From the NCBI RefSeq assembly GCF_002995495.1, contig NZ_PVZV01000003.1:124001-188000 (forward strand): a DNA stretch of 64,000 nt, in the 5' to 3' direction. A model generated the notes under the pieces. The model searched no databases and was not told the origin of the DNA. It worked only from the letters and a program-made list of their open reading frames with translations. The DNA is from Actinocorallia populi (GTDB lineage: Bacteria > Actinomycetota > Actinomycetes > Streptosporangiales > Streptosporangiaceae). A program made the translations under genes and the position numbers. Of the stretch, positions 37,308 through 58,469 are shown piece after piece (the stretch's first letter is position 1; every line of letters begins with the position of its first letter).

Positions 37308-37321
37308 CCTGCGCTTCACTG

Positions 37322-37365
37322 TCGGGACGACAGGATTTGAACCTGCGACCCCTTGACCCCCAGTC
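37322..37365 (-). other. attachment site: 3' fragment of tRNA-Pro(GGG)
   Basis: On the minus strand this reads from the anticodon loop (GACTGGGGGTCAAG) through the T arm (GGTTCAAATCC) to the acceptor end (GTCGTCCCGA), i.e. the 3' half of tRNA-Pro. After the anticodon stem the sequence no longer matches a tRNA, so the 5' half is missing here. tRNA 3' ends are classical att sites for tyrosine integrases; the integrase gene begins 157 bp away on the divergent side. The element therefore extends to the right, and the intact tRNA should lie at its other end, outside this window. Confidence 0.85.
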
Positions 37366-37522
37366 GCGTTCCGCTGTTCATCAATCACCTTGAGCAACCG
37401 CCTCTCCTGCGAGAAACTGCAGGTAGAGCGCCTGATCCCCCTGCCACACCGTCTCACCCGATGCCAGGGCCTAGCGCAGAGTCCACGGTCAAACGACGGT
37501 CAGACGATCTTGAGGAGGGAAG

Positions 37523-38854
37523 ATGGGCTTCTCGCGGAAGCGCGTCGCCAAGAACGGCAAGCCCCGGTACACCGCCTACTACACCGACCTGCGCGGCAGG
37601 GAGCTCTCCGCGGGAACCTTCGCCAGCAAGAAGGAGGCCGACAAGGCCTGGCAGAAAGCCGAGGCCAAAGTCGCCGAAGGCCAGGCAGGAAACCCGGCCC
37701 GAAAGAAACAGACCTTCCGAAGATACGTAGAGAAGGAGTGGCTACCGAACCACGTCATGGAGGCCACCACCCGCGAGGGCTACACGTACTCCATCTACGC
37801 GCACATCATGACCTGGTTCGGCTCCATGCGCATGGTCGAAATCATGCCCAGCGACGTACGCGCCTGGGTGAAGGACCAACACGACCGCGGCCTCTCCCCC
37901 ACCACCATCCGACTCAACAAATCGATCCTCAGCGGCATCTTCACCACAGCCCTGAACGACCAGATCACCTCCCTCCACCCCTGCAAAGGCGTGAAGACCC
38001 CCACCATCGCAAAAAAGCCCCTGCGCATCGTCACCCCCGAGGAGTTCGACAAGCTCTACTTCGCCCTCCCCACAGAAGACGCCCGCCTCCTGGCCGAAAC
38101 CGCCATCGAGAGCGGCATGCGCTGGGGCGAGCTGACCGAACTCCGCGTCAAGGACCTCGACCTGCTCAGCCGCATCGTCACCGTGAGCCGAACAATCGTC
38201 GAGATCAACCCCAAGCACCACCCCCAGGGCAAACGCTTCCTTATCAAGGACTACCCCAAAGACCGCGAGTTCCGCCGCTTCAAGCTCAGCCCGCAGATCA
38301 CCACCAAGCTCAAGCAGCACATCGAGGACAAGAAACTAGAGCCCGACGACCTGCTCTTCCTCTACCAGCACGAAGAACCAGCCCAGAAGCCAAAACCCGA
38401 ACAGCCAGAACCTTTGGGCCTGACCGATCCGAACGCCGCCGGACGGCGATACCGACACGGCACACTCAGCGCCTACTCCGCCGGCAAATGCCGCTGCCCA
38501 CACTGCAGAAGCGCCTACGCCACCTACCGCGCCCAGCGCCGCAGCACCGGCAAAGACAACCCACGCAACCTACGCTCCTGGAACACCGACGGACACATCC
38601 CCCGCCGATGGTTCCGCGACCACATCTGGCGCCCCGCCCTCACCGCCTCAGGCCTGGAGTTCAAGGTCAAAATGCACGACCTCCGCCACGCCCACGCCTC
38701 CTGGCTCCTCGCAGGCGGCGCCGACCTCCAAGTCGTCAAAGAACGCCTCGGACACGGCAGCATCTCCACCACCGAAAAGTACCTCCACACCCTCCCCGAC
38801 GCCGACGACACCGCCCTCGACGCCCTCGCACGCACTCGGGCCCGCTCTCGATAA
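37523..38854 (+). CDS. int: Tyrosine recombinase / integrase
   Basis: 443 residues. N-terminal AP2-like arm-binding segment (KRVAKNGKPRYTAYYTDLRG), a SAM-like core-binding domain (YVEKEWLPNHVMEATTREGY) and a C-terminal catalytic domain with SGMRWGEL (Arg near 199), HDLRHAHASWLL (HxxR near 385), LGHGS and the Tyr in TEKYLHT near 419. Between Arg and HxxR sits an insertion of about 80 residues with a CxC-PHC zinc-knuckle-like motif near 322-327. RBS GGAGGG precedes the ATG. It catalyses site-specific integration and excision at tRNA-Pro. Confidence 0.95.
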   Translation: MGFSRKRVAKNGKPRYTAYYTDLRGRELSAGTFASKKEADKAWQKAEAKVAEGQAGNPARKKQTFRRYVEKEWLPNHVMEATTREGYTYSIYAHIMTWFGSMRMVEIMPSDVRAWVKDQHDRGLSPTTIRLNKSILSGIFTTALNDQITSLHPCKGVKTPTIAKKPLRIVTPEEFDKLYFALPTEDARLLAETAIESGMRWGELTELRVKDLDLLSRIVTVSRTIVEINPKHHPQGKRFLIKDYPKDREFRRFKLSPQITTKLKQHIEDKKLEPDDLLFLYQHEEPAQKPKPEQPEPLGLTDPNAAGRRYRHGTLSAYSAGKCRCPHCRSAYATYRAQRRSTGKDNPRNLRSWNTDGHIPRRWFRDHIWRPALTASGLEFKVKMHDLRHAHASWLLAGGADLQVVKERLGHGSISTTEKYLHTLPDADDTALDALARTRARSR

Positions 38855-38940: not shown

Positions 38941-41103
38941 AAAGCATCCCGCGTGCGCAAGGTTGACTTCACCGACGGCCAGGCCGCCGTCCAGCAACAC
39001 GGAGCATCCCCGCGCGTGCGGGGCCGACTTGGCGGGCAGCACGTACTCGCCGTTGGACAGGGGAACATCCCCGCGCGTGCGGGGCCGACCCCTGGGGCTG
39101 GTTCTGCTTGTCAAGCTCGACCGGAACATCCCCGCGCGTGCGGGACCAACCCTGGCTCCGCGCTGTTGAGGAAGAAGTTCCGGGGAACATCCCCGCGCGT
39201 GCGGGGCCGACTGCACCGCCTGCTCATAGGCGAGCTGCGCCTCTGGAACATCCCCGCGCGTGCGGGGCCGACGCCAGAATCCACCGGCTGCTGGAGTTCG
39301 GGGAGGGAACATCCCCGCGCGTGCGGAGCCGACCCGCCGCCCTCGGCGCCCGCCGCCCCGAAGATGGGAACATCCCCGCGCGTGCGGGGCCGACCGACGG
39401 CACGGTCGACACCACCACCCGGCACGGGGAACATCCCCGCGCGTGCGGGGCCGACCGCCACGATGCCGCGCGCGTACTGGCGCGCCCGGGAACATCCCCG
39501 CGCGTGCGGGGCCGACTCGACGGTCTCGCCGTCGATCTCGTAGCCCGCGGGAACATCCCCGCGCGTGCGGGGCCGACAGCGGCCCCACCCAGCGGACGGA
39601 CATCCATGAGGGAACATCCCCGCGCGTGCGGGGCCGACGTCTCTCCTTGGTGTCGGGATCAGAGGGCGTGCGGAACATCCCCGCGCGTGCGGGGCCGACG
39701 CGGGGGAGAGCTGGGCGACCAGCTCCATCATCGGAACATCCCCGCGCGTGCGGGGCCGACAGGTACCGGCCGTAGCGCTGAAGCCCGGCCTTCGGAACAT
39801 CCCCGCGCGTGCGGGGCCGACGGTCACGCCCAGCTCGAGCGCTCCACGAACAGAGGAACATCCCCGCGCGTGCGGGGCCGACAACGTGCTCGGCGAGATC
39901 GAGAGCTACAACTCGGGAACATCCCCGCGCGTGCGGGGCCGACGTCTCCCTCGGCGCCCTGGCCAGCCTGGTCGGAGGAACATCCCCGCGCGTGCGGGGC
40001 CGACAACTCGGCGACCTCGGCGGCGATGACCTCCAGCGGAACATCCCCGCGCGTGCGGGGCCGACCGCTCTTCCCCGACCCGGACCAGTAGGAGACACCG
40101 GAACATCCCCGCGCGTGCGGGGCCGACGGGTTCTGTAGGTGCCGGGGGCCTACACAATCGGGAACATCCCCGCGCGTGCGGGGCCGACTCGTCGGTGAGC
40201 TGCTGGGGCATCGGTGCGCCCGGAACATCCCCGCGCGTGCGGGGCCGACCAAGAAGAGGACCGAACGATGAACGAGAACCGCGGAACATCCCCGCGCGTG
40301 CGGGGCCGACACCTGCCTGTTCGTCGATGAGTCGCTGCAGTTCGGAACATCCCCGCGCGTGCGGGGCCGACGCGCCGATCCCCGCGACCTTCGGCGCCGG
40401 CTTCGGAACATCCCCGCGCGTGCGGGGCCGACGCGTTCAGGATCCATCGCGTAGGCGGTGAGCAGGGAACATCCCCGCGCGTGCGGGGCCGACGGAGACC
40501 AGCGGCACCGGGGCTGAGCTGGCCGCGGAACATCCCCGCGCGTGCGGGGCCGACCGAAGGCGCCTTCCGATGGGTCCGCCCGTGGGAGGAACATCCCCGC
40601 GCGTGCGGGGCCGACTTCTCAGCTCGGGCCGCGCGCCCGCCCAGGTACGGAACATCCCCGCGCGTGCGGGGCCGACTAATCGCCCCTTTTCTTGGCTTGG
40701 CCCCATGAAGGAACATCCCCGCGCGTGCGGGGCCGACGATCGGCCGCAACGGGCGTAATGTCGCCTGGACGGAACATCCCCGCGCGTGCGGGGCCGACCT
40801 GCTCAAGGCCCCGCCCCCGACCTCGTAACCCGGAACATCCCCGCGCGTGCGGGGCCGACGGACGCCCCGGCCTCGACGGTCCGCTCAGCCACGGAACATC
40901 CCCGCGCGTGCGGGGCCGACTCCCGCTTGATCGTGATCCCGCCGATGTTCACGGGAACATCCCCGCGCGTGCGGGGCCGACGCCTGGACCCAGCCGATGT
41001 CGCTGGCGTCGATGGGAACATCCCCGCGCGTGCGGGGCCGACCTGCAGCTGCGTGGCCTCAGGGTCGTTCAACACGGAACATCCCCGCGCGTGCGGGGCC
41101 GAC
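38941..41103 (-). CRISPR. CRISPR array 1 (type I-E), about 35 repeats
   Basis: 28-bp repeats, period 61 bp (spacers of about 33). Transcribed on the minus strand, the repeat begins GTCGGCCCCGCA and ends GCGGGGATGTTCC, with a CCCCGC-ACGC-GCGGGG hairpin. 35 full repeats run from 39001 to 41103; a degenerate copy sits at about 38941-38967 and several variants (39001, 39123, 39306) cluster at this left end, as expected for the old trailer side. The leader is at the right. Spacer lengths vary by a base at 40038-40283. Confidence 0.97.
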
Positions 41104-41254
41104 ACTTGCTGACCTGGGGGTTTGCAGGCGAGGGGAGCGATTTTTATTCAGGTGGATTCGGTCGAGGCGCGTTGGGCGGGCGGACAAAAGGCTGGTGAGC
41201 TCATTCTGTCACCAGCTGAGGATAGGTGGAGCGGCGCCTGGGAGAGGAGGTCGG
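41104..41254 (-). promoter_or_regulatory. Leader of CRISPR array 1
   Basis: Read on the minus strand, it carries the conserved CTGAATAAAAATC element and the repeat-proximal CCCAGGTCAGCAAGT, exactly 48 bp from the element start to the first repeat. The whole segment is closely similar to 48709-48852. On the plus strand it leads into the remnant of a second cas3 gene. Confidence 0.8.
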
Positions 41255-41338
41255 ATGAGTGCGGGTCAGGTATGGACGGGATGGGATGCGGATGTCGTGC
41301 GGAGATTGGGGTCTTGTAGGGGAAATCCGCGGAGAAGA
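41255..41338 (+). pseudogene. Remnant of a second cas3 (5' end)
   Basis: ATG 41255 opens MSAGQVWTGWDADVVRRLGS, matching the start of the intact Cas3 at 48853 (MSAGQAWARWDADVLRRLG). One base is missing in the G run after codon 20, so the frame shifts, and the similarity ends near 41338 where the sequence jumps to the end of cas1. Both the leader and this start are in the same arrangement as in the intact locus. Confidence 0.85.
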
Positions 41339-41346
41339 GGAACGCT

Positions 41347-41532
41347 CCCCTCCTCCCCACTGAAGGGGCCGAACCGCCAGAAGACACCAACGAGCTATGG
41401 GACGAACGCGTCGGCAGCGTCAATTGGGCCGACGAATCGGACATGGCCGTCAACCTCAGTACAGCCTTCATCCAACCCACCATGGGAGACCATCACATGG
41501 CGATCATCGGCCCCGAGTTCGACGCCCCATGA
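41347..41532 (+). pseudogene. Remnant of a second cas1 (3' end)
   Basis: From about 41347 the DNA matches the last 65 codons of the intact cas1 (about 57975-58176), including ACCAACGAGCTATGGGACG and the stop TGA overlapping the cas2 ATG. It is fused directly to the cas3 remnant; everything between (about 9 kb in the intact locus) is deleted. Confidence 0.85.
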
Positions 41533-41780
41533 CCGTCATCGTCCTCATCGCCGCCCCCGAAGGCCTCCGCGGCCACCTCACCCGCTGGATGATCGAAGTC
41601 AACGCCGGCGTGTTCGTCGGCAACCCCAGCCACCGTATCCGCGACCGCCTCTGGGAACTCCTCGCCACCCGCATCGGCGACGGCCAAGCCATCCTCGTCG
41701 AACCCTCCACCAACGAACAAGGCTGGTCCGTCCGCACCGCCAGCACCCAACCGTCTTTTACCAGGTCAAAAACCCGCTGA
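41529..41780 (+). pseudogene. Truncated second cas2
   Basis: The first 71 codons are nearly identical to the intact cas2 at 58173 (TVIVLIAAPEGLRGHLTRWM onward), differing at only a few bases. The match stops abruptly near 41741 and the frame ends 13 codons later in unrelated sequence. The C-terminal strands that form the Cas2e dimer and contact Cas1 are lost, so it is non-functional. Confidence 0.85.
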
Positions 41781-41965
41781 GCTTTCTGCAGAGACCACCG
41801 CATCGGCGCACTCTTCGGGCACACCCCAACACCAGTGAACCTTCTCCCTTTCCCCCAGGCCAGCGTTCCATTACTCACTGTGTCCAAATCGGGCCACTGG
41901 GTTGTGGACAGCCAAAGCTTTTCGAATCCTGGAGGGCTGGCCTCCCTCCTTTGAAAGGCGTTCGG

Positions 41966-44900
41966 TTGGACCCGTCAGATCCCCAGATCAAAAATTCTTC
42001 ACTCGGCCTCGCCAACTACCTGGGTGAGCTGGTGCGTGCAGCCGAACCGCTTAACCGCACCGTGCGCGGTCTGGAGTCATGGTGGTTGGCAGACCTTCCG
42101 CACGGCGTTCCCTCGCCTGCACTCCACCGAGACGGGCTTCTCCTGACTCTCGACCTGGAAGCCGCTCAACCTCCCCCCGCTCCTCCTTCCGTGTGCGAAG
42201 ACCTCATCGAGGGTGGCTGGTCGGATCCCGCGGCTGTTCCAAAGCTGCGACCCGGGTTGCCGGAGCCTGCCTCCGGCGGAGTGCCCATGATCGAGGCACC
42301 AGGCGATCCCGTCGAGAGACAGTTCGATGAGTGGCTCACCCGCTGGTCACGCTGGGCGGAGCCAGAAGCCGCGAGGCGAAGCCGGGAAACCCTTCGGCGG
42401 GAACTCGCGGCCGCCGCCCGGCAACTGGATCTCCATAGCGATACGCAGGAACTGATCCTCGGTGTCGGACTTCTCTGCTGGCGCTCGCCCCGAGGAGATG
42501 AGGTATTCCGCCACTTGCTCACCGCCCCGGTGCAGATTGTGGTGGACAAGCAGACGGGCCGCGTGGGCGTGCACCTGCGCGACGAAGGCGAGCTGGCCTT
42601 GGAGGACCAGTACTTCCTCACCGAGCAGGACGGATACGTCGCCTCCCGGGTCGAGCCGTTGCGAGGAGCCCTCAGCGAGGTCTCCGACCCTCTGGACGAT
42701 CAGGCGAAGGCCCTTCTGCACAAATGGGCTTCCCACGGGTTGGAGACGCCATGCAAGTTCGAGCCGGTCTGGTCAACACCCGAAACAGGAGGGCCTCATG
42801 CCCTGGTATCCCTCTCACCGGCTCTGGTACTCCGGCATCGAAGCAGCAACCGGTTGGCGGAGTTCTACCAAGGCATTCATGCTTCGCTGAGCGATCCTGA
42901 AGGAGTGGCGCCCTTGGGATGGGCTCAGCTGATGTTCCCGATGGAGCCCGAAGAGCGCCTCGCCTGGCACCGCGCAACCCGCGGAACCGCCGGCACTTCC
43001 CGGCTCCTCTCTGAGGAACCGCTGTTCCCGCTGGCGATGAACGATGAGCAGCGTCTGGCCTTCGACAAGCTGTCAAAGGACACGGTGCTGGTCATAGAAG
43101 GGCCGCCCGGAACCGGAAAGACCCACACGATCGCCAACCTCATGTCGGCTCTCCTGGCCGAAGGCAAACGTGTGCTCGTGACGAGCGCCCGGGACAAAGC
43201 GCTCAATGTCCTCTTCGACGACGGCATGCTTCCCAAGCCGTTGCAGCGGCTGTGCGTCCGTTTGGACGACCAGCGCGGCAACCGGGGAAAGGAACTGACC
43301 CGATCAGTCACAGCGTTGTCTGACGCCTCCGCCGAGCGCAGCAAAGAAGAGATCCTCGAACGCGCCCGAATGCTGACAGATCGGCGCAGCGAGTTGAAGA
43401 GGGAGATCTCGCTCGTACACCGGCAGCTGTGGGAACTCATCGAAGCCGAGACCACAGACCTCGGTGAGGTCGCGCCCGGCTACCGCGGTCGTCGCGCCGA
43501 CATCGCTGAACGCGTAGCCGACACCGCAAGCACGCATTCCTGGATCGGCATCATGCCGGACTCCGCAGCACCGGTGCCCTTGAACTCGCAGGAGGCACAG
43601 GAGCTCGCACAACTCCTCCGTACCCCAGCGCAGAACGATCAGCCGCTGCCTACACTACGAGCCGGCAATCCCCCGACCCCGGACGAGTTCACCGCCCTCG
43701 TCTCGGCGGCTCATCAAACGTTGCCCGCAAGCGGCGTCGGAGCACGTCTCGCCGAACGTCTCAGCACCCTAGACGAAGGCGCTTTTCGAACGGTAAGCGC
43801 CTTCTGGGAGCTTGCCTGCAACGCTTTGCAGGGCCTTCGCCTCCCAGGAGACACCGCCTCATGGTCCTCTATCGACTGGCAAGGCACAGCGGCGCTTTCG
43901 ATCCTTCAAGGCGGAGACGTCTCGGCATGGAAGCATCTGTGGGAGGCCACCCGAACCGCCGCACCACATGCACAGGAGCTGGCGCGGCTGACCGGTCGTT
44001 ACCTTCAAATTCCGGCACTACATGGTGCGGGGGCTGCTGAAGCCGCCTCGGCTGCCGAGGCCTACAGCCGTTTCCTCAAAGCGGGAGGACGCCCAGGAAA
44101 GATCAAGAAAAGCCCTGAACAGCGGATGGCGGAACGATCCTTGGCCGAGTGCTTCGTCGATGGCCGGAGGCCTTCTACCGTCGCGGACTTCGACATGCTG
44201 ACGACCGCCCTCCGCGCGGTTGCAGTTCTCAGCGGGTTGAGCAATCGGTGGAGACGAAGCGGCGTCAAGACCAACACACCAGACAACGTTTCACAGAACC
44301 TCGAAGCCCTCGTCGGGCGCGAAGCGGACCTGGCGCATTTGATCCGTTTCGCTGAAGCACTTGAAAGTCTCCACCAGCACTTGCCAGATCGCAGCGCCAT
44401 CCACGCGAGCGGTTCGTGGGATTGGCCAGCTCTCGTCGAGGGATTTACAGCCGCTCCCGCCCACATGAAGTCCGCTCGAGCAAGGCGCAATCTCGACTCG
44501 CTTCGTGCTCGAATAGCCGATGCCGACCACCCTCTCTTCCGAGAGATGACTACCGCCGTCGAGCGACGGGACCTCGCCGCTTACACGACGGCGTTCGAGA
44601 TCTGGAAAACACAAGCGCACAGTCAGCGGCTGGCGGAACGGCGCAGCGAACTCGTCGATCGTGTGGCCGCCGTGCATCCTGCTCTCGCGCACAGACTCGC
44701 CACAGCCACGATGGATGACGACTGGACTTCTCGCCTGGAAACTCTCGACGAGGCTTGGGCCTGGTCCGCTGCCGCCGCAGCGGTGAGCAGCAGATCCGTC
44801 GAGTCCACAGCCGAGCTGCAGAGGGAGCTGGACCGTCTCGAAGACGCCCTCATGAAGACGACCGCGGAGTTGGCCTCCGAACAAGCCTGGTGGCATTGCC

Positions 44901-46342
44901 TGCAGCGCATGAGCGTCCGGGAGGCTTCGGCTCTCCGTTCCTTCGCCCGAGAGATGAAGAGGGTCGGACGAGGCAAAGGCCGGTACGCCGGTCGGCATCG
45001 GCAAGGCGCGCGGGAGGCCATGCGACTTGCCCGAGATGCGGTACCTGCATGGGTCATGCCGGTACGTCAGGTCGCCGAGACGATCGATCCGCGGCCTGAC
45101 GCGTTCGACGTGATCATCATCGATGAGGCCAGCCAGCTCCCCGTCGAGTCGGCGTTCCTCCTCTGGCTGGCGCCCCAGGTGATCGTCGTCGGAGACGACA
45201 AGCAGTGTTCGCCGCCGATGCGGGTCAGCGGAGAACTCGAACCGATCTACGAACGGATCGAGGAATACCTACCCGACGTACCCAGAGCGTTCCGGCACGA
45301 CCTCACGCCGAAGTCGAACCTGTACGAGCTGATGAACGTGCGCTTTCCCGGTGGACAACGGCTGACCGACCACCACAGGTCCATGCCAGAGATCATCGCT
45401 TGGTCGTCGCGCATGTTCTACGACGGCTCGCTCACTCCCCTACGCCAGTACGGCACGGATCGGCTTCCTCCCCTGCGCGTCGTGGATGTCCCGGACGGCT
45501 ATCGAGAGGGACGCGACCAGAACGTTCGCAACCCGCCAGAGGCAGAGAAGCTCGTCACCGAGCTCAAAGCCATGATCGAGGATCCTGCGTACAGCGGGAA
45601 GACATTCGGGATCATCTCCCTGCAGGGAGGCGAGCGCAGCGGCCACATCAGGCTCATCGAGCAACTGCTCGACGAGCATCTCCCCGACCAGGCTCTACGC
45701 GAACGGCTCAAAATCAGGGTCGGCACGCCGCCGGACTTCCAGGGCGATCAGCGCGATGTCATCCTCCTGTCGATGGTCGCCACCGGCACACCGCGGATCC
45801 AAGGAGGAGCAGACTTCGAGCAGCAGCGCTGGAACGTCGCGGCGACGCGAGCCCGCGACCAGATGGTCCTCTTCGCCTCGACCACCCTGACTCAACTGAA
45901 GAGCGACGACCTCAGGGCATCCCTGCTGAAGCACATGCTCGACACCCCGATGCGAGAGACAACGCCCCAGCACCTGCTGCACGTTGAACCGCAGACCAAA
46001 CACCCCGAATTCGACTCGCTCTTCGAGCAGAAGGTCTTCCTCAAGATCAGAGAACGCGGATACGAGGTTGTCCCGCAATATCCGGCCGGCCGCAACATGC
46101 GCATCGACCTCGTGATCGTCGGTGAAAAAGGGCGTCTCGCGGTGGAATGCGACGGGCGTTATTGGCACAGCGGCGCCAAGCAGGTTCAAGACGATCTGCT
46201 ACGCGAACGCATCCTCCGCCGCGCCGGATGGACGTTCTGGCGACTCCGCGAGAGTGACTTCCTCCTCGACCCCGATGTCTCCCTTCGCCCCCTGTGGGCA
46301 CTTCTCGACCGCATCGGCATCCATCCCGCGAAAGGACAATGA
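41966..46342 (+). CDS. Large SF1 (DNA2/Upf1-like) helicase with C-terminal PD-(D/E)XK nuclease
   Basis: About 1458 residues. The N-terminal 370 residues include the WLADLP segment common in this helicase class. Walker A GPPGTGKTHTIANL is at about 379; a 650-residue insertion follows; Walker B IIIDEASQLP is at about 1051, then VVGDDKQCSPP (motif III) and an SF1 C-terminal lobe with DQRDVILLSMV and RWNVAATRARDQM. At about 1375-1420, MRIDLVIVG and LAVECDGRYWHSG form an E-x-DG-type Vsr-like nuclease core (MTES_1575-like). TTG 41966 after GAAAGG is the most likely start; the open frame continues upstream through the cas remnants, which are not part of it. Probable anti-phage effector, co-translated with the next gene. 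Confidence 0.85.
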   Translation: MDPSDPQIKNSSLGLANYLGELVRAAEPLNRTVRGLESWWLADLPHGVPSPALHRDGLLLTLDLEAAQPPPAPPSVCEDLIEGGWSDPAAVPKLRPGLPEPASGGVPMIEAPGDPVERQFDEWLTRWSRWAEPEAARRSRETLRRELAAAARQLDLHSDTQELILGVGLLCWRSPRGDEVFRHLLTAPVQIVVDKQTGRVGVHLRDEGELALEDQYFLTEQDGYVASRVEPLRGALSEVSDPLDDQAKALLHKWASHGLETPCKFEPVWSTPETGGPHALVSLSPALVLRHRSSNRLAEFYQGIHASLSDPEGVAPLGWAQLMFPMEPEERLAWHRATRGTAGTSRLLSEEPLFPLAMNDEQRLAFDKLSKDTVLVIEGPPGTGKTHTIANLMSALLAEGKRVLVTSARDKALNVLFDDGMLPKPLQRLCVRLDDQRGNRGKELTRSVTALSDASAERSKEEILERARMLTDRRSELKREISLVHRQLWELIEAETTDLGEVAPGYRGRRADIAERVADTASTHSWIGIMPDSAAPVPLNSQEAQELAQLLRTPAQNDQPLPTLRAGNPPTPDEFTALVSAAHQTLPASGVGARLAERLSTLDEGAFRTVSAFWELACNALQGLRLPGDTASWSSIDWQGTAALSILQGGDVSAWKHLWEATRTAAPHAQELARLTGRYLQIPALHGAGAAEAASAAEAYSRFLKAGGRPGKIKKSPEQRMAERSLAECFVDGRRPSTVADFDMLTTALRAVAVLSGLSNRWRRSGVKTNTPDNVSQNLEALVGREADLAHLIRFAEALESLHQHLPDRSAIHASGSWDWPALVEGFTAAPAHMKSARARRNLDSLRARIADADHPLFREMTTAVERRDLAAYTTAFEIWKTQAHSQRLAERRSELVDRVAAVHPALAHRLATATMDDDWTSRLETLDEAWAWSAAAAAVSSRSVESTAELQRELDRLEDALMKTTAELASEQAWWHCLQRMSVREASALRSFAREMKRVGRGKGRYAGRHRQGAREAMRLARDAVPAWVMPVRQVAETIDPRPDAFDVIIIDEASQLPVESAFLLWLAPQVIVVGDDKQCSPPMRVSGELEPIYERIEEYLPDVPRAFRHDLTPKSNLYELMNVRFPGGQRLTDHHRSMPEIIAWSSRMFYDGSLTPLRQYGTDRLPPLRVVDVPDGYREGRDQNVRNPPEAEKLVTELKAMIEDPAYSGKTFGIISLQGGERSGHIRLIEQLLDEHLPDQALRERLKIRVGTPPDFQGDQRDVILLSMVATGTPRIQGGADFEQQRWNVAATRARDQMVLFASTTLTQLKSDDLRASLLKHMLDTPMRETTPQHLLHVEPQTKHPEFDSLFEQKVFLKIRERGYEVVPQYPAGRNMRIDLVIVGEKGRLAVECDGRYWHSGAKQVQDDLLRERILRRAGWTFWRLRESDFLLDPDVSLRPLWALLDRIGIHPAKGQ

Positions 46343-47229
46343 TGCACGCCCTCGACGACAACACCTTGGAAGAACTCGCCCACCTCATCTGCGGGGACGA
46401 CGGGCCCCTCTACAGATCCGGCCCGAATCTCGCGAAATTCCTCACACGCGCAGGATGGCCGACGGTTCCACCGCATGACGGCACCCCACGCCGCTCCTGG
46501 ATCTTGGCGCGGCTACGCGAACGCCGTAACGACCCCCAAGCAATGGAAGCCGTCCTGCTCCGCCTGGCCGATAGCCGGGAATATCTGGGCGAGCCCTCCG
46601 CCACCGTCAACGACGTGACGCGCGAACTCAACGCCTTCCTCGTCCACGAGGGCTACAAAGTGACCCGTGCCGGCGGCGCGCCTCGCCTGGTCGAATGTTC
46701 TCCAGGATCGGACACCACTACGTCATTCGCCCCCGAGCTCCTTCGCGAAGCCCTCGACAAAGCCATCGCTCCTTCGCAACTTCGCACGGTCCTTCGGAGC
46801 CGCCTGGACGAAGCCGTCACCTGCTACGAGAACGGTTCGCACGTCGCGGCGATCATCATGCTCGGCAGTCTCATCGAAGGCATTCTGATCGATGCCATGA
46901 TGACCAGGCCTGTCAGCGTGCCACCCCGAGCAGACCTGAACAAGATATCCCTCGACGAATTGCTGACTCTCGCTCAAAGGAACGGCTGGATCGGCAACGA
47001 CGTGACCAAGTACCCCTGCGCGGCCCTTCGCCAGTACCGGAATCTCGTCCACCCCCGAGCCCAGATGCGCATGCCAGGCCCGCCCCCTGACCGAGACACC
47101 GTCGAGCTCTGCTGGCCAGTCGTGCGGGCAGTGCTTAACGACCTCATCGACACGCGTGGAAAGCAGACGAATCCAGCGACCCCATCTCCCGCCCAACTCG
47201 CACAACACAGAAGGCCACCGCAGCGCTGA
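46339..47229 (+). CDS. HEPN-like protein coupled to the helicase-nuclease
   Basis: 296 residues. The first 110 residues look like a small helical effector-associated module (LEELAHLICGDDGPLYRSG, KFLTRAGWPTVPP, ILARLRERRNDPQ). The C-terminal half is a helical bundle (VAAIIMLGSLIEGILIDAMM, LTLAQRNGWIG) ending ALRQYRNLVHPRAQ; RQYRNLVH fits the R-x(4-6)-H motif of HEPN RNases and matches Abi-type proteins by eye. The ATG overlaps the helicase stop (ATGA) behind AAAGGA. Inferred partner: RNA or DNA cleavage and nuclease coupled to infection sensing; function not proven. Confidence 0.75.
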   Translation: MMHALDDNTLEELAHLICGDDGPLYRSGPNLAKFLTRAGWPTVPPHDGTPRRSWILARLRERRNDPQAMEAVLLRLADSREYLGEPSATVNDVTRELNAFLVHEGYKVTRAGGAPRLVECSPGSDTTTSFAPELLREALDKAIAPSQLRTVLRSRLDEAVTCYENGSHVAAIIMLGSLIEGILIDAMMTRPVSVPPRADLNKISLDELLTLAQRNGWIGNDVTKYPCAALRQYRNLVHPRAQMRMPGPPPDRDTVELCWPVVRAVLNDLIDTRGKQTNPATPSPAQLAQHRRPPQR

Positions 47230-47338
47230 TAGCACCACCCTGTTAGGAACATACCGATCAGGATCTCGATCCGGAAACTCCCGTCCCCGGCCCGGCACCC
47301 CTCCCTTACCTTCCTTTCCCGGGGCTCGTAGGGAGACG

Positions 47339-48708
47339 GGAGCATCCCCGCATGTGCGGGGCCGACGCCAAAGCGGTGAGGCGGTACGGCCAGTACGGCG
47401 GAGCATCCCCGCGTGCGCGGGGCCGACTCGTGACCTCTCGGGATCGGGCCGTCGTAGCGCGGAGCATCCCCGCATGTGCGGGGCCGACTTCGTGACGTGC
47501 GTGTCGAACTGAACCTGGTAGGGAGCATCCCCGCGTGTGCGGGGCCGACGCCGCCGGGGAGGTATCCGCCATCTCACCGCCCGGAGCATCCCCGCGTGTG
47601 CGGGGCCGACATCGGGGACGCGCTGAGGAACGCCGCGATGCGGGGAGCATCCCCGCGTGCGCGGGGCCGACGCCACGGACGAGCAGCTCGCCAAGGTGGG
47701 TGAGGGAGCATCCCCGCGTGTGCGGGGCCGACCCGTCCAGCGCGAAGCCCACGTAGTCCGTGCCGGGAGCATCCCCGCGTGTGCGGGGCCGACGTTGGTT
47801 CGGATGCTGGTCGGGATGACGTCAGCGGAGCATCCCCGCGTGTGCGGGGCCGACTCCGCACCCCATGGCCAAGTTCACCCTCGACTCGGAGCATCCCCGC
47901 GTGTGCGGGGCCGACTGCATGATCAGCGGCCAGGAGATGTGCATCTGGGGAGCATCCCCGCGTGTGCGGGGCCGACGATCCCAGCAGCTACCGCGTGACG
48001 ATCGACATAGGAGCATCCCCGCGTGTGCGGGGCCGACGTGCGCGGTGTCTACGAGCTGTCGGGTGAGCTGGGAGCATCCCCGCGTGTGCGGGGCCGACAC
48101 TGTTGGATCGTCAACCGGTGGTTGGCGCCCGGGAGCATCCCCGCGTGTGCGGGGCCGACCCCCGGGTCTTGCAGGTGGGGCAGGGGGTCTCGGGAGCATC
48201 CCCGCGTGTGCGGGGCCGACACAGTTGGCGTCTCTGGAGATCATCACCAGGGCGGAGCATCCCCGCGTGTGCGGGGCCGACCTGCTCGAGCCGCTCGAGC
48301 CGTCCGGACAGGTCGGAGCATCCCCGCGTGTGCGGGGCCGACGTCTCCTTGACATACGTACGGGTCATCCGTACAGGAGCATCCCCGCGTGTGCGGGGCC
48401 GACGGGTTGATCTCCGTCAGCAGGGACTTGCTGTCCGGAGCATCCCCGCGTGTGCGGGGCCGACGTCTCCTTGACATACGTACGGGTCACCCGTACAGGA
48501 GCATCCCCGCGTGTGCGGGGCCGACATGCTCCAGGACCGTCAGCGCCTCCTGGGACAGGGAGCATCCCCGCGTGTGCGGGGCCGACATCAGCGCGTCGAC
48601 CTCCACCGGCGGGCGCGGCGGAGCATCCCCGCGTGTGCGGGGCCGACCACAGCGGCAGCTCCAGGACATGGCGGAAGAAGGGAGCATCCCCGCGTGTGCG
48701 GGGCCGAC
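47339..48708 (-). CRISPR. CRISPR array 2 (type I-E), 23 repeats
   Basis: 23 repeats of 28 bp at a strict 61-bp period (22 spacers of 33). On the minus strand they begin GTCGGCCCCGCACAC and end GGGGATGCTCC, differing from array 1 in the loop and the last bases. A few variant repeats (CATGTG in place of CGTGTG) are at the left, trailer end. The leader is at the right, next to cas3. Spacers 4 and 6 from the leader are the same except for one base. Confidence 0.97.
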
Positions 48709-48852
48709 ACTTGCTGACCTGGAGGTTCGCAGGCGGGGAGAGCGATTTTTATTCAGGTGGATTCGGTTGAGGCGCGTTAGGCGAACAGACGAAAGGTCGG
48801 CAAGCTCATTTTGTCACCGGCTGAGGCTAGCTTGGCGGCGGAGAGGGGTCGA
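48709..48852 (-). promoter_or_regulatory. Leader of CRISPR array 2 and cas3 upstream region
   Basis: Same 48-bp arrangement as the other leaders: CTGAATAAAAATC followed by CCAGGTCAGCAAGT next to the first repeat. It is shared by the array (minus) and cas3 (plus), whose ATG lies 144 bp away; it is the intact counterpart of the array 1 leader. Confidence 0.8.
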
Positions 48853-51675
48853 ATGAGCGCGGGTCAGGCTTGGGCGCGATGGGATGCAGATGTCCTGCGA
48901 AGATTGGGGGTCTTGTGGGGGAAGTCCGCGGAGAAGGGCGGCGGACGGACGAACCTCCTACTGGCGCATCTTCTGGATACCGCCGCGGTCGCTGAGCTGA
49001 TATGGGATCGCTATCTGGCCGAGTCCACCAAGGGGATGTTGGACGAGATCGCTGGGGAAACGGGACGGGGGCGCCGGTTCTTCGCGTGGTTGTGCGGGAT
49101 CCATGACTGTGGGAAGGCTACGCCGGCGTTCCAGCGGATCGACGAGGAAAACGGTGAGCGGGTACGGAGCAGCGGGCTTACCTGGGTCGGAGCTCAGACC
49201 CACCGATGGCGACACGATCGAGCCGGTGGACGGTTGATCCAGGATGTCCTGAGGGAGGCCGGATGGACTGCAGAACAGGCTTCATGGATCTGGCCTCTGG
49301 TAGCCGGACATCACGGCCGGGTTCCGTCAGCCGGGGAATGCAAAGAGCCCCCGAAAGCCCGGGGACATCTCTACGGCAAGGGCCCTGCCTGGCGGGAAGT
49401 TCAGAAGGCTGTCGTCGAATCGTTCACGTTGCAGCTCGGTTACGAGAGCCTGATCGAAGCGCAGCCGGCCAAAAGACCCAACCGGGCCGTGCAATTGCAG
49501 CTCAGCGGGCTCATCATCATGGCCGACTGGATCGCGAGCGACGAACGACACTTCTCGGGAATCGACGATCTTGCCGCTGTATCCCTACAGGCGTCTCATG
49601 ATCGTGCCGCACGTGCGTGGAGCGAGCTCGGTCTGCGCGGCGGTTGGGGCAGGCTCGAAATACCCGGGCCCGAAGCGTTCCAGGATCGGTTCGGTCATGC
49701 TCCACGCGCGTCTCAGATCATGGTGATGGAGGCCGCCCGCCGGATGGAGAGACCTGGCCTCCTCATCGTCGAGGCTCCCATGGGAGAGGGGAAGACGAAG
49801 AGCGCCTTGGCCGCCGCCGAGATCCTCGCGGCCAAGTTCGGAGCAGACGGCATCTTCATCGGGATGCCGACGCAGGCGACAAGTGATCCCATCTTCTCCC
49901 AGGTCCGCGCATGGGCTGCGGAAGTCCTCCCCGGTCTGGAGAGCCAAGTGGCCCTATTGCACGGGAAGCGCCGCTTCAACAAGGAGTGGCGTGCGCTCCT
50001 CGAAGCGGCGGGCGAGACGCCGGATGATCTCTACGGGGCCATTGAGGAGGACGCCCTCTACGGTTTTTCGCCGGATGCGGATTGTTGCGATCAGGAACGC
50101 CATGCTCCGGCCGAGTGGTTCCTCGGCCACAAGCGCGGTTTGCTGACGCCGCTCGTCGTCGGAACCGTCGATCAGCTCCTGATCGCTGCAACGAGAACGA
50201 AGCACGTCATGCTGCGGATGGCGGGGCTCGTCGGCAAGGTGGTGGTCCTGGACGAGGTTCACGCTGCCGACGTTTATATGTCGGAGTTCCTGAAGGAAGG
50301 CCTGCGTTGGTTGGGCCAGGCCGGTGTCCCCGTCGTCATGCTCTCGGCGACTCTTCCTCCAGGACAGAAGAAGGAACTGACGGATTCTTATCTGGCGGGT
50401 GCCATGTCTCGCGAGGAACCACCGGAGTTCGATCTCCCGGATCCCGTCGGCTACCCGAGCGTGACGGCGGCCTACGTCGACGATGCACCGCGGGTCTTCG
50501 TCGAGCACTGTTCATCATGGAGAGCTGATCTGACAGTCCGCCTCGAGGCGCTCGACGAGCATGAGGGAGCCGGCCGAGATCCGCATTCGGCTGTCGCGGA
50601 GCTGCTCGCCGACAGACTCCGAGGCGGAGGTTGCGCCCTCGTCATCCGCAATACCGTCGACCGCGCGCAGGACACCTACCAGGCACTGCTGTCCCATTTT
50701 GGCCCTGACGAGGTGGCCCTCCTACACGGACGTCTCCATGCCGCCGACCGTGCGGATCGCACTGAGGAAGCGCTCGAGCGGCTAGGTCCCTCGTCCCACC
50801 CAAGACCCCGACGCATCCTCGTCGCGACGCAGCTCGCGGAGCAATCGTTCGATGTCGACGCCGATTTCCTCGTCACTGATCTCGCCCCGATCGACCTCCT
50901 TCTGCAGCGCATCGGCCGACTCCACCGGCATAACGGTGTTCCACGCCCCAGCCTCGTTCGGGATCCGTGCGTTGTCGTCACCGGTTTCAGCGAGCGCCTG
51001 GATGGAGCGCCCTGGATCCTCCCGGCCAGCAGAGCCATCTACGGCGCCTATCCGCTCCTCCGGACAGCCGCTCTGGTCTTGGAGGCCACTGCCCGCCCAT
51101 GGCAGGCCCCCGGGCAGGTCCCTGCGCTCGTCGCTGCCGTATACGAAGACCATCGCGTCGTCCCCGAGTCCTGGACGACCGCCGAAGTCGATGCGCGCAG
51201 CAAATGGGATGAGGATAGGCGGAAGCGCACCGTGAACGCCCAGCAGTACGTTCTGACCGGCATCGGCGGCCATGAGAAGAAGACCCTCGACTCCCTTCAC
51301 TACGGCGGTTCTTCCGGAAGCGAGGAGGTCACCAAGGCGATGGTCCGCGACGGAGAGCCCAGTCTCGAGGTCATTCTTCTTCGTAAGGACGAATCGGGCT
51401 ACCACACCATGAACGGACGGTTCTTGAGCCAGGACGGAGGAGTCCGCACCGACCGGCTCGACGATGTCCTGGCCGGGACTGTCCGTCTTCCCGCCGGGTT
51501 CACTCCCACCGCCGAGAAAGAGCTCAAACCCTTGCCCGTCTGGCGGGACGACCCTTGGCTCCGTCAGTCCCGCGCCCTATGCCTCGACGCACGGGGGCGC
51601 ACCGTCTTGGACGGCATCCCCATCCGCTATGACCCTGCCCTTGGTCTCGTCATCAACCGCGATAGCACCCGGTGA
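48853..51675 (+). CDS. cas3: Cas3 helicase-nuclease
   Basis: 940 residues; unwinds and degrades DNA marked by Cascade. N-terminal HD nuclease: LLLAHLLDTAAV, HDCGKATPAFQ near residue 84 and GHHGRVPSAGE. SF2 helicase: Walker A EAPMGEGKTKSALAA near 307, DEVHAAD near 464, SATLPPGQ, and QRIGRLHRH near 684 (motif VI). A C-terminal domain follows. ATG 48853 matches the start of the ghost copy at 41255. It is separated from cse1 by a 523-bp non-coding gap, so it may be controlled separately. Confidence 0.97.
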   Translation: MSAGQAWARWDADVLRRLGVLWGKSAEKGGGRTNLLLAHLLDTAAVAELIWDRYLAESTKGMLDEIAGETGRGRRFFAWLCGIHDCGKATPAFQRIDEENGERVRSSGLTWVGAQTHRWRHDRAGGRLIQDVLREAGWTAEQASWIWPLVAGHHGRVPSAGECKEPPKARGHLYGKGPAWREVQKAVVESFTLQLGYESLIEAQPAKRPNRAVQLQLSGLIIMADWIASDERHFSGIDDLAAVSLQASHDRAARAWSELGLRGGWGRLEIPGPEAFQDRFGHAPRASQIMVMEAARRMERPGLLIVEAPMGEGKTKSALAAAEILAAKFGADGIFIGMPTQATSDPIFSQVRAWAAEVLPGLESQVALLHGKRRFNKEWRALLEAAGETPDDLYGAIEEDALYGFSPDADCCDQERHAPAEWFLGHKRGLLTPLVVGTVDQLLIAATRTKHVMLRMAGLVGKVVVLDEVHAADVYMSEFLKEGLRWLGQAGVPVVMLSATLPPGQKKELTDSYLAGAMSREEPPEFDLPDPVGYPSVTAAYVDDAPRVFVEHCSSWRADLTVRLEALDEHEGAGRDPHSAVAELLADRLRGGGCALVIRNTVDRAQDTYQALLSHFGPDEVALLHGRLHAADRADRTEEALERLGPSSHPRPRRILVATQLAEQSFDVDADFLVTDLAPIDLLLQRIGRLHRHNGVPRPSLVRDPCVVVTGFSERLDGAPWILPASRAIYGAYPLLRTAALVLEATARPWQAPGQVPALVAAVYEDHRVVPESWTTAEVDARSKWDEDRRKRTVNAQQYVLTGIGGHEKKTLDSLHYGGSSGSEEVTKAMVRDGEPSLEVILLRKDESGYHTMNGRFLSQDGGVRTDRLDDVLAGTVRLPAGFTPTAEKELKPLPVWRDDPWLRQSRALCLDARGRTVLDGIPIRYDPALGLVINRDSTR

Positions 51676-52198
51676 CGCGGGCACTCACGAGGCCGACCCG
51701 GCTCACTGCTTCTCGGAACGTCCACCCAGCACGCCTACGAGCCGTCTCGCGATCGTCCATGCGACGAGAGCAAACGCGAGACGCGCATCCTGAGACTTCT
51801 CCTCAGGCACCAACCCCGACAGAGATCACTGGACAACGGCCCAGTCATGAGCATGGCTGCTGGGGGTCTCCTGTTGAACCTACAAACCTCGAACTGGAGT
51901 GCGTTGATCCTACTTACAAGCAAATATCCTGAATCTTGAGTCTTCAAGTGGCTCTTGTGGGATGATTCCTCTGTGTACAGCTGGAATCCCTCCCTGGACT
52001 TCATGCGCGTGAGACATCCCGCCTGGCCACAGAGAGCCCTTTCTTCGTCCAATCCGGTACAGAGGAGGATCACTCCTTGAACCCTGGGGCAGACGACGTC
52101 GTCCCGGGCCGGCATACGAGCTCTTGCGGAACGCCAGTGACTTCGCCGTACTCAGCGTCTCCGTCCCTTCCGACACACGGCCAATATCGAAGGCGCGT
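51676..52198. other. 523-bp gap between cas3 and cse1, probable cas operon promoter
   Basis: No open frame here looks like a real gene. The middle is distinctly AT-richer than the surroundings (near 51905-51960) and carries CTTGA-N4-TCAAG at 51935-51948. It is the most likely place for the promoter and regulator site of the cse1-cas2 genes. Confidence 0.5.
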
Positions 52199-53809
52199 AT
52201 GGAACCGTTCGACCTGACACAGGATCCCTGGCTGCAACTTCGCAGCATGCAAGGTGGCCAAATCATCTCCGTGGGCATCGCCGACGCACTGACCAACGCC
52301 GACTCGTTCGGAGAATTGGTCGTTGACCTGCCCACACAGACGCCTGCGTTGTTGCGGCAAGTGCTGTTGCCGGTGGTCGCGGATGCGTTGGGACTACCGA
52401 AAGACGAGGAGGAATGGGCTCAGCGGTTCACGGCCGGAGCCTTCCTGCCGGAGGAACAGGGCAAGCTCCGCTCGTACCTGGCCGATAACGCAGATCGGAT
52501 GTCCCTGTTCGGAGACAAGCCGTTCGCTCAGGTCGGCGGGCTGGAGGCGCTGAGCGGGGAGACCAAGGGGTCCGGCTTGATCGTCGCGACCGAAGCGACG
52601 GGAAACAACGTGCCGTTGTTCTCGGCGCGCACCGAAGCCGCTCCCCCGGCTCTCACATCGGCCGAGGCCGCCCGCTGGCTGCTGCACGCGCACTGCTGGG
52701 ACACGGCCGCCATCAAGACCGGTGCGAAGGACGACCCCAAGGCCAAGGCCGGCAAGACGACGGGCAATCCAACGGGGCCGCTGGGACAGCTCGGCGTCCT
52801 CGTCCCGATCGGAAAGACCTTCTACGAGACACTCATACTGAATCTGCCGATCTGGCACCCATCGAAGACCGGGATCCCCCAGTGGCGTAAGCCCGAAGCG
52901 CGACCGGAGTGGGATCCCTCGTACACGCCCACAACGCTGCTCGAATTGTGGACGCTCCAATCGCGACGCATTCGGCTGATCCCGGAGGAGACTCCTGAAG
53001 GAGTCCGCGTGAGTAGGGTGATCGTGGCTGCGGGCGACCGGCTGCATACCCTCCCTGAGTGGGAGCCCCATACCGCCTGGAAATCCGACAAACCTGCGAA
53101 CAAGAGCAAGCCCGCCGACCGCAAACCACGACGCCACGTTCCCGGGAAGGCAATCTGGCGCGGGCTGGACGCCCTCCTTGCGATCGAGCAGGCGAACGTC
53201 GAGGGCGGCTCCGTCGAGACGAGTCTTCTCCTCAGACAGGCGGCGGACATGCGCGGCCACGCCATCCCGGATGACTACCCGCTTCGGGTCGAGGCGTTCG
53301 GCCTGGTCTACGGCAACCAGTCGGCCGTCGTGGAGCATCTCTACCACGACCTCGTCACCCTGCCGATGGCCACACAGGCTGAAGACCAAGACCTGTACGG
53401 CGCAATGATCGAAATGTCCGAGCAAGCCGAGCAGTTGGCTCGAGCGGTCAACCATCTCTCGGCGGACCTGCGCCGCGCCAGCGGGCTGGAGCCCATCCCG
53501 TGGGACAAGGGCCAGCGTCCCGGTGAGCAGGTCCTCCATCGGCTCGACCCTGCGATGCGCCGGGTGTTGAGCCACCTTCCCGGTCTCGACGACGAACGCA
53601 TCGAAGACGTTCTCCTCGCTTGGGAAAAGAACGCCCGCCGTGTCACCGACGAGGTCGCCGCAATGGTGTTCGCCTCGGTTCCGGAATCCGTCTTCGGTCC
53701 GCGCGGCGCCGAAGGCGATGACGTGCGGGAGCGCGGTCTGGGGCAGGCCACCTCTCATTTCCGAGGACGCGTCAACCGCATCCTTCAACGTTCCCTCGGC
53801 GGCGCTTGA
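52199..53809 (+). CDS. casA: Cas8e/Cse1, large Cascade subunit
   Basis: 536 residues. The start FDLTQDPWLQL is the hallmark of Cse1 (E. coli FDLLTRPWI-type). It recognises the PAM and recruits Cas3. Segments IGKTFYETLILNLPIW and the C-terminal four-helix bundle (TDEVAAMVFASVPESVFG) fit the family. ATG 52199 with GAAGG upstream is preferred over an in-frame start at 52124. First gene of the Cascade operon. Confidence 0.93.
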   Translation: MEPFDLTQDPWLQLRSMQGGQIISVGIADALTNADSFGELVVDLPTQTPALLRQVLLPVVADALGLPKDEEEWAQRFTAGAFLPEEQGKLRSYLADNADRMSLFGDKPFAQVGGLEALSGETKGSGLIVATEATGNNVPLFSARTEAAPPALTSAEAARWLLHAHCWDTAAIKTGAKDDPKAKAGKTTGNPTGPLGQLGVLVPIGKTFYETLILNLPIWHPSKTGIPQWRKPEARPEWDPSYTPTTLLELWTLQSRRIRLIPEETPEGVRVSRVIVAAGDRLHTLPEWEPHTAWKSDKPANKSKPADRKPRRHVPGKAIWRGLDALLAIEQANVEGGSVETSLLLRQAADMRGHAIPDDYPLRVEAFGLVYGNQSAVVEHLYHDLVTLPMATQAEDQDLYGAMIEMSEQAEQLARAVNHLSADLRRASGLEPIPWDKGQRPGEQVLHRLDPAMRRVLSHLPGLDDERIEDVLLAWEKNARRVTDEVAAMVFASVPESVFGPRGAEGDDVRERGLGQATSHFRGRVNRILQRSLGGA

Positions 53810-53848
53810 GCCCTGAGGAACGCGACATCACCCTCCCGGAGAACCTGG

Positions 53849-54439
53849 ATGAGCGATAAGACCGAGCGTTACTGGCATCGGGTGAAAACTGATGGATCAT
53901 GGCGCATCAACCCCGTCACCGGAGAATCCTTCGGTCCCCCACCGGGCGAGGATCTCGCCGCCATGCGAGCTGGCCTCGGCCGTCGATACGGTGAAGTCGT
54001 GGCGTTGTGGCCGCATTACCGGTCGGAAGTGAACGACGAGTTGGCCAAACGAGGCGAGGCTTCCGTCGAACAGCACGCCGAGCACGCCGTCCTCACCCTT
54101 TACGGGCTGCACCAGCAGTCCAAGGACAGGTCGATGCACAAGCCCGGAGCCCGTCTCGGCAAGGCACTGCGGGTGCTGCGCCACAGCGAGAACTTCACCC
54201 CGGAAGCCGTGGACCGGCGTGTCAACGCAGCAGCCACCACAACCTCTCCCGATGCGCTCCTCATCCGTCTTCGAGGCCTGATCGACCTTCTCCGGACGAT
54301 CGATCAGCCGCTCGATTACGACGCCCTTCTGTGGCTCGTCCGGGACTGGTACCGGGAGGACACCCGCCGCCGCGCCCGTATTCAGTGGGCGAGCGATTAC
54401 CAGAGCCCGGCCAAACCTTCTTTCGACGAGAACTCCTGA
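53849..54439 (+). CDS. casB: Cse2/CasB, small Cascade subunit
   Basis: 196 residues, mainly helical. It begins TERYWHRVKTDGSWRINP and has the Cse2 patterns LRRG-like GLGRRYGEVVALWPHYRSE and LTLYGLHQQSK and LRVLRHSENFTPEAVDRRV. Cse2 forms a dimer in the belly of Cascade that stabilises the R-loop. GGAGAA precedes the ATG; 39 bp after cse1. Confidence 0.92.
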   Translation: MSDKTERYWHRVKTDGSWRINPVTGESFGPPPGEDLAAMRAGLGRRYGEVVALWPHYRSEVNDELAKRGEASVEQHAEHAVLTLYGLHQQSKDRSMHKPGARLGKALRVLRHSENFTPEAVDRRVNAAATTTSPDALLIRLRGLIDLLRTIDQPLDYDALLWLVRDWYREDTRRRARIQWASDYQSPAKPSFDENS

Positions 54440-54468
54440 ACTCTCAGCCCACCGCACCGGAGACAACG

Positions 54469-55602
54469 ATGCTCAAGCGTCAGTACGTCGACTTCCACAT
54501 CATCCAGACGGTTCCCCCCGCGAATCTCAACCGGGATGACCAGGGCAACCCGAAGGAGGCCAAGTTCGGTGGGGTCCGCCGCTCGCGGGTCTCCTCGCAA
54601 GCGTGGAAGCGCGCGACCCGTATCTTCTTCGACGGAAAGCTCCCCGAGGCCGACCAGACGACTCGCACTAAGCGGCTCACCGGGCAGCTCGCCGAGCGGC
54701 TGAAGGATCGCACCAGCATCGAGTCCGAGCAGGCCAACCGTATCGCCGCCGCGTTGCTGGAGCCTCTCGGTATCAAACCCTCCAAGAAAAAGGCTGACGA
54801 GACCTCCTATCTCCTCTTCTTCGGGTACCGGCAGCTCGACGGGATCGTCGACCTCGTCGCCGACCAGGCCAAGGAACTCGCCCAGCTCGACGACGCCGCG
54901 CTCAAAGAGGCGGTGAAGGGCGTCGACGTTTCCGAGCAGCTCAAAACCGGCCACACCATCGGAGTCGCGCTGTTCGGCCGCATGGTCGCCGACATCCCGT
55001 CGTTGAACGTGGACGCAGCCACGCAGGTCGCGCACGCCCTGTCCACGCACCCTGTGGAGCTCGAAGCCGACTACTACACCGCGGTCGACGACGAGAACGA
55101 GGTGGACGAGACGGGCGCCGGGATGATCGGCAGCATCGGTTTCAACTCCGCCACTCTCTACCGGCACGCCACCGTCGGCGTTCACCAGCTCGTCGAGAAC
55201 CTCGGCAACGTCGACGAGGCGATCAAGGCCGTCGGTCTCTTCGCCGAGGCTTTCGCCCTTTCCATGCCGACCGGACACATCAACTCGTTCGCGCACCGGA
55301 CCCGTCCCAGCCTCGTGGCCGTCGTTCTCCGTGACGACCAGCCGGTGAACCTGGTCTCCGCCTTCGAGACCCCGGTGGCGAACGGGAGGGAGGACAAGGG
55401 CTTCGCCCAGGTCTCCGCGCAGCGGCTGGCCGCCGAGTTCGCCCGCTCTTGCAAGCAGTGGGGCGACGAACCCGCCTATGCCGGGGCCTCTCACGCCTTC
55501 GACGATGAGTCCCTGACCGCTGCGTTCGGGGAGAATCTCGCCTTCAGCACCTTGCTGTCCCAGCTCGATGACGCCTTGGCTGCTTCGTGGAAGGCTCAGT
55601 GA
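54469..55602 (+). CDS. cas7e: Cas7e/CasC, Cascade backbone subunit
   Basis: 377 residues. YVDFHIIQTVPPANLNRDDQ and KFGGVRRSRVSSQAWKRATR are classic Cas7e segments; the latter is the crRNA-binding part of the RRM. GMIGSIGFNSATLYRHATV and LSMPTGHINSFAHRTRP are also diagnostic. Six copies coat the crRNA spacer. ATG 54469 follows GGAG; 29 bp after cse2. Confidence 0.96.
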   Translation: MLKRQYVDFHIIQTVPPANLNRDDQGNPKEAKFGGVRRSRVSSQAWKRATRIFFDGKLPEADQTTRTKRLTGQLAERLKDRTSIESEQANRIAAALLEPLGIKPSKKKADETSYLLFFGYRQLDGIVDLVADQAKELAQLDDAALKEAVKGVDVSEQLKTGHTIGVALFGRMVADIPSLNVDAATQVAHALSTHPVELEADYYTAVDDENEVDETGAGMIGSIGFNSATLYRHATVGVHQLVENLGNVDEAIKAVGLFAEAFALSMPTGHINSFAHRTRPSLVAVVLRDDQPVNLVSAFETPVANGREDKGFAQVSAQRLAAEFARSCKQWGDEPAYAGASHAFDDESLTAAFGENLAFSTLLSQLDDALAASWKAQ

Positions 55603-56399: not shown

Positions 56400-56402
56400 A
56401 CC

Positions 56403-57155: not shown

Positions 57156-57156
57156 C

Positions 57157-58176: not shown

Positions 58177-58469
58177 CCGTCATCGTCCTCATCGCCGCCC
58201 CCGAAGGCCTCCGCGGCCACCTCACCCGCTGGATGATCGAAGTCAACGCCGGCGTGTTCGTCGGCAACCCCAGCCACCGCATCCGCGACCGCCTCTGGAA
58301 CCTCCTCGCCACCCGCATCGGCGACGGCCAAGCCATCCTCGTCGAACCCTCCACCAACGAACAAGGCTGGTCCGTCCGCACCGCCGGCAAAGACCGCTGG
58401 CACCCCACCGACTTCGACGGCCTCATCCTCTCCGCCCGCCGCCGTGCCGCCTCCCGTCCCGCCCTCTGA
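58173..58469 (+). CDS. cas2: Cas2e
   Basis: 98 residues, TVIVLIAAPEGLRGHLTRWM, VFVGNPSHRIRDRLW and GWSVRTAG: Cas2e family, which lacks the metal-binding Asp of other Cas2 proteins and serves as the dimeric scaffold between two Cas1 dimers. ATGA overlap with cas1. The array 3 leader begins 35 bp after its stop. Confidence 0.95.
   Translation: MTVIVLIAAPEGLRGHLTRWMIEVNAGVFVGNPSHRIRDRLWNLLATRIGDGQAILVEPSTNEQGWSVRTAGKDRWHPTDFDGLILSARRRAASRPAL

Follow-up and report, generated by a model that had tools for sequence, protein, structure and literature searches.

Orphan or isolated CRISPR arrays are reportedly treated by Shmakov et al. (2020) in CRISPR J. Arrays of this type lack cas genes of their own and may function together with cas genes at another genomic site (PMC8616872; PMC5294841), and a distance of 10 kb from cas genes is used as the limit for calling an array isolated (PMC5294841, PMC12814883). 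Orphan I-F arrays with anti-cas spacers are known from E. coli (Almendros et al., 2016, as summarised in PMC8616872). Degraded CRISPR/cas loci of Escherichia, Salmonella and Shigella were described by Touchon and Rocha (2010; PMC2886076). In these loci the I-E cas cluster is partly or wholly deleted, sometimes with just a cas3 pseudogene left, and the leader stays by the array; it was suggested there that arrays may persist longer than the cas genes. Decay of the kind reported below is already documented by that work.

A related case was analyzed in Actinocorallia populi, in a window of 64,000 nt (the whole stretch of DNA under study) taken from a 765-kb contig of the 8.25-Mb draft genome, which comprises 25 contigs. 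Coordinates are positions in this window, and leader positions (-13, -47, -48) are counted from the first repeat. The type I-E content of the window amounts to three arrays, one intact operon and one collapsed operon, referred to as the ghost operon:

39001-41103, minus strand: array 1, 35 clear 28-bp repeats (GTCGGCCCCGCACGCGCGGGGATGTTCC, read from the leader) and 34 spacers of 33 bp, one being of 34 bp
41105-41254, minus strand: leader 1, at the same time the upstream region of ghost cas3, about 87% identical to leader 2
41105-41764, plus strand for the cas parts: ghost type I-E operon including leader 1
41255-41337, plus strand: ghost cas3, codons 1-28, with a 1-bp frameshifting deletion
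41338-41347, plus strand: deletion junction, a 10-bp filler (AGGAACGCTC) without clear counterpart in the intact locus
41348-41528, plus strand: ghost cas1, codon 275 to the end, frame open
41494-41741, plus strand: putative gene-conversion tract shared with the intact cas1 end and cas2
41529-41764, plus strand: ghost cas2, start codon kept, codons 1-71 open, then a 13-bp deletion
41848-47235, plus strand: two-gene cassette between the CRISPR units and separate from both
47339-48708, minus strand: array 2, 23 repeats (GTCGGCCCCGCACACGCGGGGATGCTCC)
48710-48852, minus strand: leader 2, the leader of array 2
48853-58469, plus strand: intact type I-E operon (cas3, cse1 (cas8e), cse2, cas7, cas5, cas6, cas1, cas2)
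58553-59556, plus strand: array 3, 17 repeats (GTCGGCCCCGCACGCGCGGGGATGCTCC)

Transcription of every array points away from its leader, on the minus strand for arrays 1 and 2 and on the plus strand for array 3, and the repeat stem CCCCGC/GCGGGG is common to all three. In leader 1, CAGGTCAGCAAGT adjoins the first repeat and CTGAA lies at -48; both elements recur in related leaders, and array 3 has its own leader with the same two elements just left of 58553. The 35 repeats of array 1 are nearly uniform. Its leader-distal and thus oldest clear repeat, at 39001, has the sequence of array 3, ending in ATGCTCC, and a more decayed repeat lies to the left of it at 38939. No match was obtained in an Rfam search.

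As in the loci of Touchon and Rocha, I-E cas genes have been deleted and the array has survived with its leader. Unlike in those loci, an intact operon of the same subtype is present about 7 kb from the ghost, the ghost has kept both tips of the operon, and its cas2 has apparently been overwritten from the intact copy. Array 1 has no functional cas operon of its own beside it, since the stump alone adjoins leader 1. In contrast to isolated arrays, however, it lies within the 10-kb limit, the intact cas3 being 7.7 kb away (48853 versus 41104), so that a survey would call it a second array of the intact locus. Like the E. coli orphan I-F arrays, as far as PMC8616872 summarises them, array 1 was left after cas loss. 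In contrast to what is summarised there, the spacers of arrays 1-3 showed no strong match to the cas operons examined, and a self-inflicted cas loss via anti-cas spacers was unsupported.

The initial annotation had recognized the ghost of a second type I-E operon and had asked for an alignment with the intact locus. BLAST comparison returned E values of about 1e-36 for the leader, 1e-22 for cas3, 1e-33 for the cas1 tail and 1e-121 for cas2, demonstrating that leader and all three cas segments align far beyond chance. Relative to the intact locus, about 9.04 kb are missing (48937-57976). The proposed deletion of about 9 kb is thereby confirmed, with its bounds moved from cas3 codon 30 and cas1 codon 275 to cas3 codon 29 and cas1 codon 274. 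The 5' end of cas3 is indeed joined to the end of cas1; instead of a direct fusion, the 10-bp filler lies between them. Likewise, cas2 is truncated as had been stated, and the cause is not the large deletion but the separate 13-bp frameshifting one. It is followed by about 20 bp of decayed homology fading out near 41764, the shifted frame ends at 41780, and the last 27 residues of the protein are lost. Together with the 1-bp deletion in cas3 this describes a degraded type I-E locus with broken gene content, next to which an array of 35 repeats and a leader with conserved elements are kept.

The description of all ghost segments as nearly identical to the intact locus did not hold, since divergence is distributed as a patchwork. 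Leader 1 and the cas3 5' end (41105-41337 versus 48710-48936) share 196 of 226 positions (~87%). From the cas1 tail to cas2 (41348-41745 versus 57977-58389), 374 of 397 positions are identical and 17 further columns are gaps. Within this alignment the cas1 tail (41348-41497) is 85% identical, with 22 mismatches in 150 positions and in-frame gaps of 3 and 12 bp, whereas the cas1 end and cas2 (41498-41745) are 98.4% identical (4/248 mismatches). The mismatch contrast along the ghost was significant (Fisher test, p = 5e-7). The best tract, 41494-41741, is 98.8% identical, with 3/248 mismatches versus 30/169 outside, and none of 300 permutations was as strong. Outside the cas2 tract the copies are about 13-15% apart, in agreement with the earlier statement that the divergence is not recent. 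In the ghost cas1 stump, codon position 2 was changed only twice and the gaps are multiples of three. The open stump and its in-frame gaps imply that both copies diverged as working genes before one collapsed.

Taken together, the ghost is very probably a second, once functional type I-E unit that suffered an internal deletion of about 9 kb, in which array 1 and its leader were spared, and that later underwent conversion of cas2, its array plausibly being used in trans. The second unit would have had the usual local layout of array, leader and cas3 to cas2; in relatives the layout reads array/leader/cas3...cas2/leader/array. The two copies would have diverged by about 13-15% as working genes, until one of them lost the segment between cas3 codon 28 and cas1 codon 275, with a 10-bp filler at the join. 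The outward-pointing array 1 and its leader would have outlasted this deletion. Some time after the main divergence, gene conversion between the two copies would have overwritten about 250 bp over cas2, and Cas6, Cascade and Cas1-Cas2 of the intact operon would now process and use array 1 in trans.

The presence of two related units was upheld, whereas duplication within the genome, given in the initial annotation next to a merger of two lineages, could not be singled out as their origin: the data fit an old duplication as well as the merging of two closely related loci. An old tandem duplication within the lineage, with the copies diverging in place until one collapsed, is a quite possible origin, to which we give somewhat less than an even chance. 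Ghost and intact copy are mutual closest relatives, with a divergence of 14.7% in the cas1 tail versus at least 25.5% to others among about 70 sampled loci, and they are mutually nearest also with respect to 343 family genomes. In the loci searched, leader 1 had no match other than leader 2 and vice versa, and the oldest clear repeat of array 1 is that of array 3. Moreover, a whole I-E locus can be present twice, as on a plasmid of Kitasatospora sp. NBC_01519 (NZ_CP109408.1; L144, L145), where an inverted duplication of at least 40 kb, with copies 99.99% identical, includes it. Against this stands the divergence itself, since 13-15% implies a long coexistence of 9-kb direct repeats 7 kb apart, and recombination should remove or homogenise such repeats. 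Close Cas2e genes occur on many Streptomyces plasmids, hence incoming alleles were available, and the lower GC content than in the left backbone and the integrase at 37523 suggest imported DNA. We therefore slightly favour a joining of two related loci by transfer over the old tandem duplication: 9-kb direct repeats that are 87% identical and separated by 7 kb should not persist side by side for long, plasmids of Streptomyces commonly carry close Cas2e genes, and the DNA from about 36 kb onwards is lower in GC than the left backbone and begins with an integrase gene. A related element with an intact first copy, which had been proposed as a check and would be the donor in a merger, was not found in the 343 family genomes, 80 named loci and a plasmid collection.

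Gene conversion between ghost and intact cas2 would be the simplest reading of the mosaic. For the ghost and the intact copy, the divergence of cas2 relative to that of the cas1 tail amounts to a ratio of 0.12, the lowest among 2076 homologous pairs (median 0.53, 1% quantile 0.27), and from this most extreme value a later conversion of cas2 between the two copies is inferred. In assembled sequence such a conversion is not separable with certainty from a very local assembly problem. It is improbable that cas2 has instead stayed near-identical through selection, either for a truncated Cas2 that is still of use or at the level of the DNA. The ghost frame is open for 71 codons with its start codon kept, and cas2 DNA is in general conserved between genera. 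Yet the frameshift removes the last 27 residues, the changes ahead of the 13-bp deletion are mostly non-synonymous, and relaxed selection should raise the cas2/cas1-tail ratio rather than yield the lowest of all pairs. Relatives also lack a general excess of synonymous conservation at the cas2 3' end, which had been looked for as a DNA-level constraint on cas2 as an embedded leader. Hardly credible is an assembly chimera in which cas3 and cas1 of the intact locus were joined: the draft state of the genome, with repeated arrays close by, would allow for it, but the contig is 765 kb long and private substitutions flank the junction on both sides, together with in-frame indels in cas1, which makes mis-joined reads of the intact locus, and hence the error at 41338-41347 that had been named as a refutation, very unlikely.

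Subsequently, the possible function of array 1 was considered. Searches of the genome for cas1 and cse1, the two cas genes searched genome-wide, each returned a single locus, so that array 1 can be served only in trans, as the initial annotation had it. Array 1 shares its repeat stem with the other arrays, and leader 1 retains both recurring leader elements. In related leaders CAG(G/C)TCA from -13 was present in 26/57 cas3-side and 31/41 cas2-side leaders, and (C/T)GA at -47 in 23/57 and 25/41, respectively. In E. coli, Cas1-Cas2 binds the repeat border, with a further element upstream at -50 to -55 (PMC10011333); the spacing of the elements here resembles this layout. In 29 related loci with two arrays the repeat consensus differed in 24 pairs, a few of which are orientation artefacts of the scan, and in 16 of the 24 the difference lay in the 3' handle. 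Since paired arrays of relatives often differ, the one-base T/C difference in the handle of array 1 is ordinary and no bar to its use. Judged from sequence, use of array 1 in trans by the intact operon is plausible. Spacers common to arrays 1, 2 and 3, looked for as a sign of array duplication, were not found; no activity of array 1 can thus be placed later than the collapse.

For arrays 1 and 2, searches for phage protospacers gave weak matches only. Two spacers of array 2, A2_4 and A2_6 (48343-48497), are near-identical (32/33 bases) and lie two units apart. Spacer A2_21 (47428-47460) matches a spacer of Actinomadura fibrosa (L053:18818-18849) at 30/32 bases, a spacer that belongs to the short array adjoining the cas2 stump described below for that species; two genera thus appear to have sampled one mobile element. 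Furthermore, a stretch matching type I-E repeats was observed in Saccharomonospora phage PIS 136 (JX006077.1:15684-15893), and a decayed mini-array of about five degenerate repeats lies elsewhere in the host genome (L124:8051-8308; G000:C4, about 276050-276310).

The stretch 37320-38854 holds an integrase gene with a tRNA-like 3' fragment just upstream of it, at about 37325-37365. From the integrase rightwards the GC content falls from about 0.71 to about 0.65, and this continues beyond the window; the region is probably a large imported island. A tRNA-bounded element was considered and rejected, no second copy of the fragment and no tRNA being found within 80 kb to the right of the window. 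The cassette between the two CRISPR units consists of a gene at about 41957-46342, which encodes an SF1 helicase with an MTES_1575 nuclease domain, and a gene at 46345-47229, which encodes a 294-aa protein without Pfam match. Its best PADLOC match is PDC-S37 (E 9e-56), and as a block it is 77-81% identical to a locus elsewhere in a congener (G002). The helicase-nuclease and its partner form a candidate two-gene defence cassette, which resembles an independent insertion and may have taken the place of the sequence that once followed ghost cas2.

Five further actinobacterial genomes were found to carry comparable stumps beside arrays:

Goodfellowiella coeruleoviolacea (L099): array, leader, cas3 tip, cas1 tail, decayed cas2 and one decayed repeat, adjoining an intact operon
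Actinomadura fibrosa (L053): cas2 from codon 34 onwards, leader and short array, plus an intact operon
G649 (L135): cas2 from about codon 39, leader and array, adjoining a gene that by its look is a candidate insertion-sequence transposase gene
G587 (L136): decayed repeats, cas2 from about codon 59, leader and repeats
G410 (L137): array, leader fused to about cas2 codon 13, leader and array

Since the junctions differ, these five collapses are separate events. The cas2 stop lies exactly 18 bp ahead of the first repeat in about 36 of 62 loci, and at most 30 bp ahead in 41 of 62. The leader of the downstream array thus overlaps cas2, and part of cas2 necessarily stays behind in any deletion that spares this leader. 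One codon at the 3' end of cas2, codon -10, stands out; its position seems to match that of the CTGA element of the leader, about -48, a correspondence noted post hoc. As a tentative generalisation, which we regard as possible and rather doubtful, actinobacterial I-E loci would collapse repeatedly by one route, in which all between the outward arrays is lost, the leaders are spared and the overlap leaves a cas2 stump; arrays would work on with a second operon, and stumps would keep exchanging sequence with it. Among the I-E operons of Streptomyces, seven (L095, L097, L098, L103, L104, L105 and L113) show two neighbouring cse2-like matches.

The sequence of the locus clearly documents the loss of one cas set, and the retention of both memories, in a genome that had one CRISPR subtype in two copies. 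The patchwork of divergence is also a warning that cas2 may mislead when such relics are dated. The recurring cas2 stumps offer a simple mark for arrays that formerly had cas genes of their own, with which surveys can distinguish arrays that remained after the loss of an operon from those that originated as copies.
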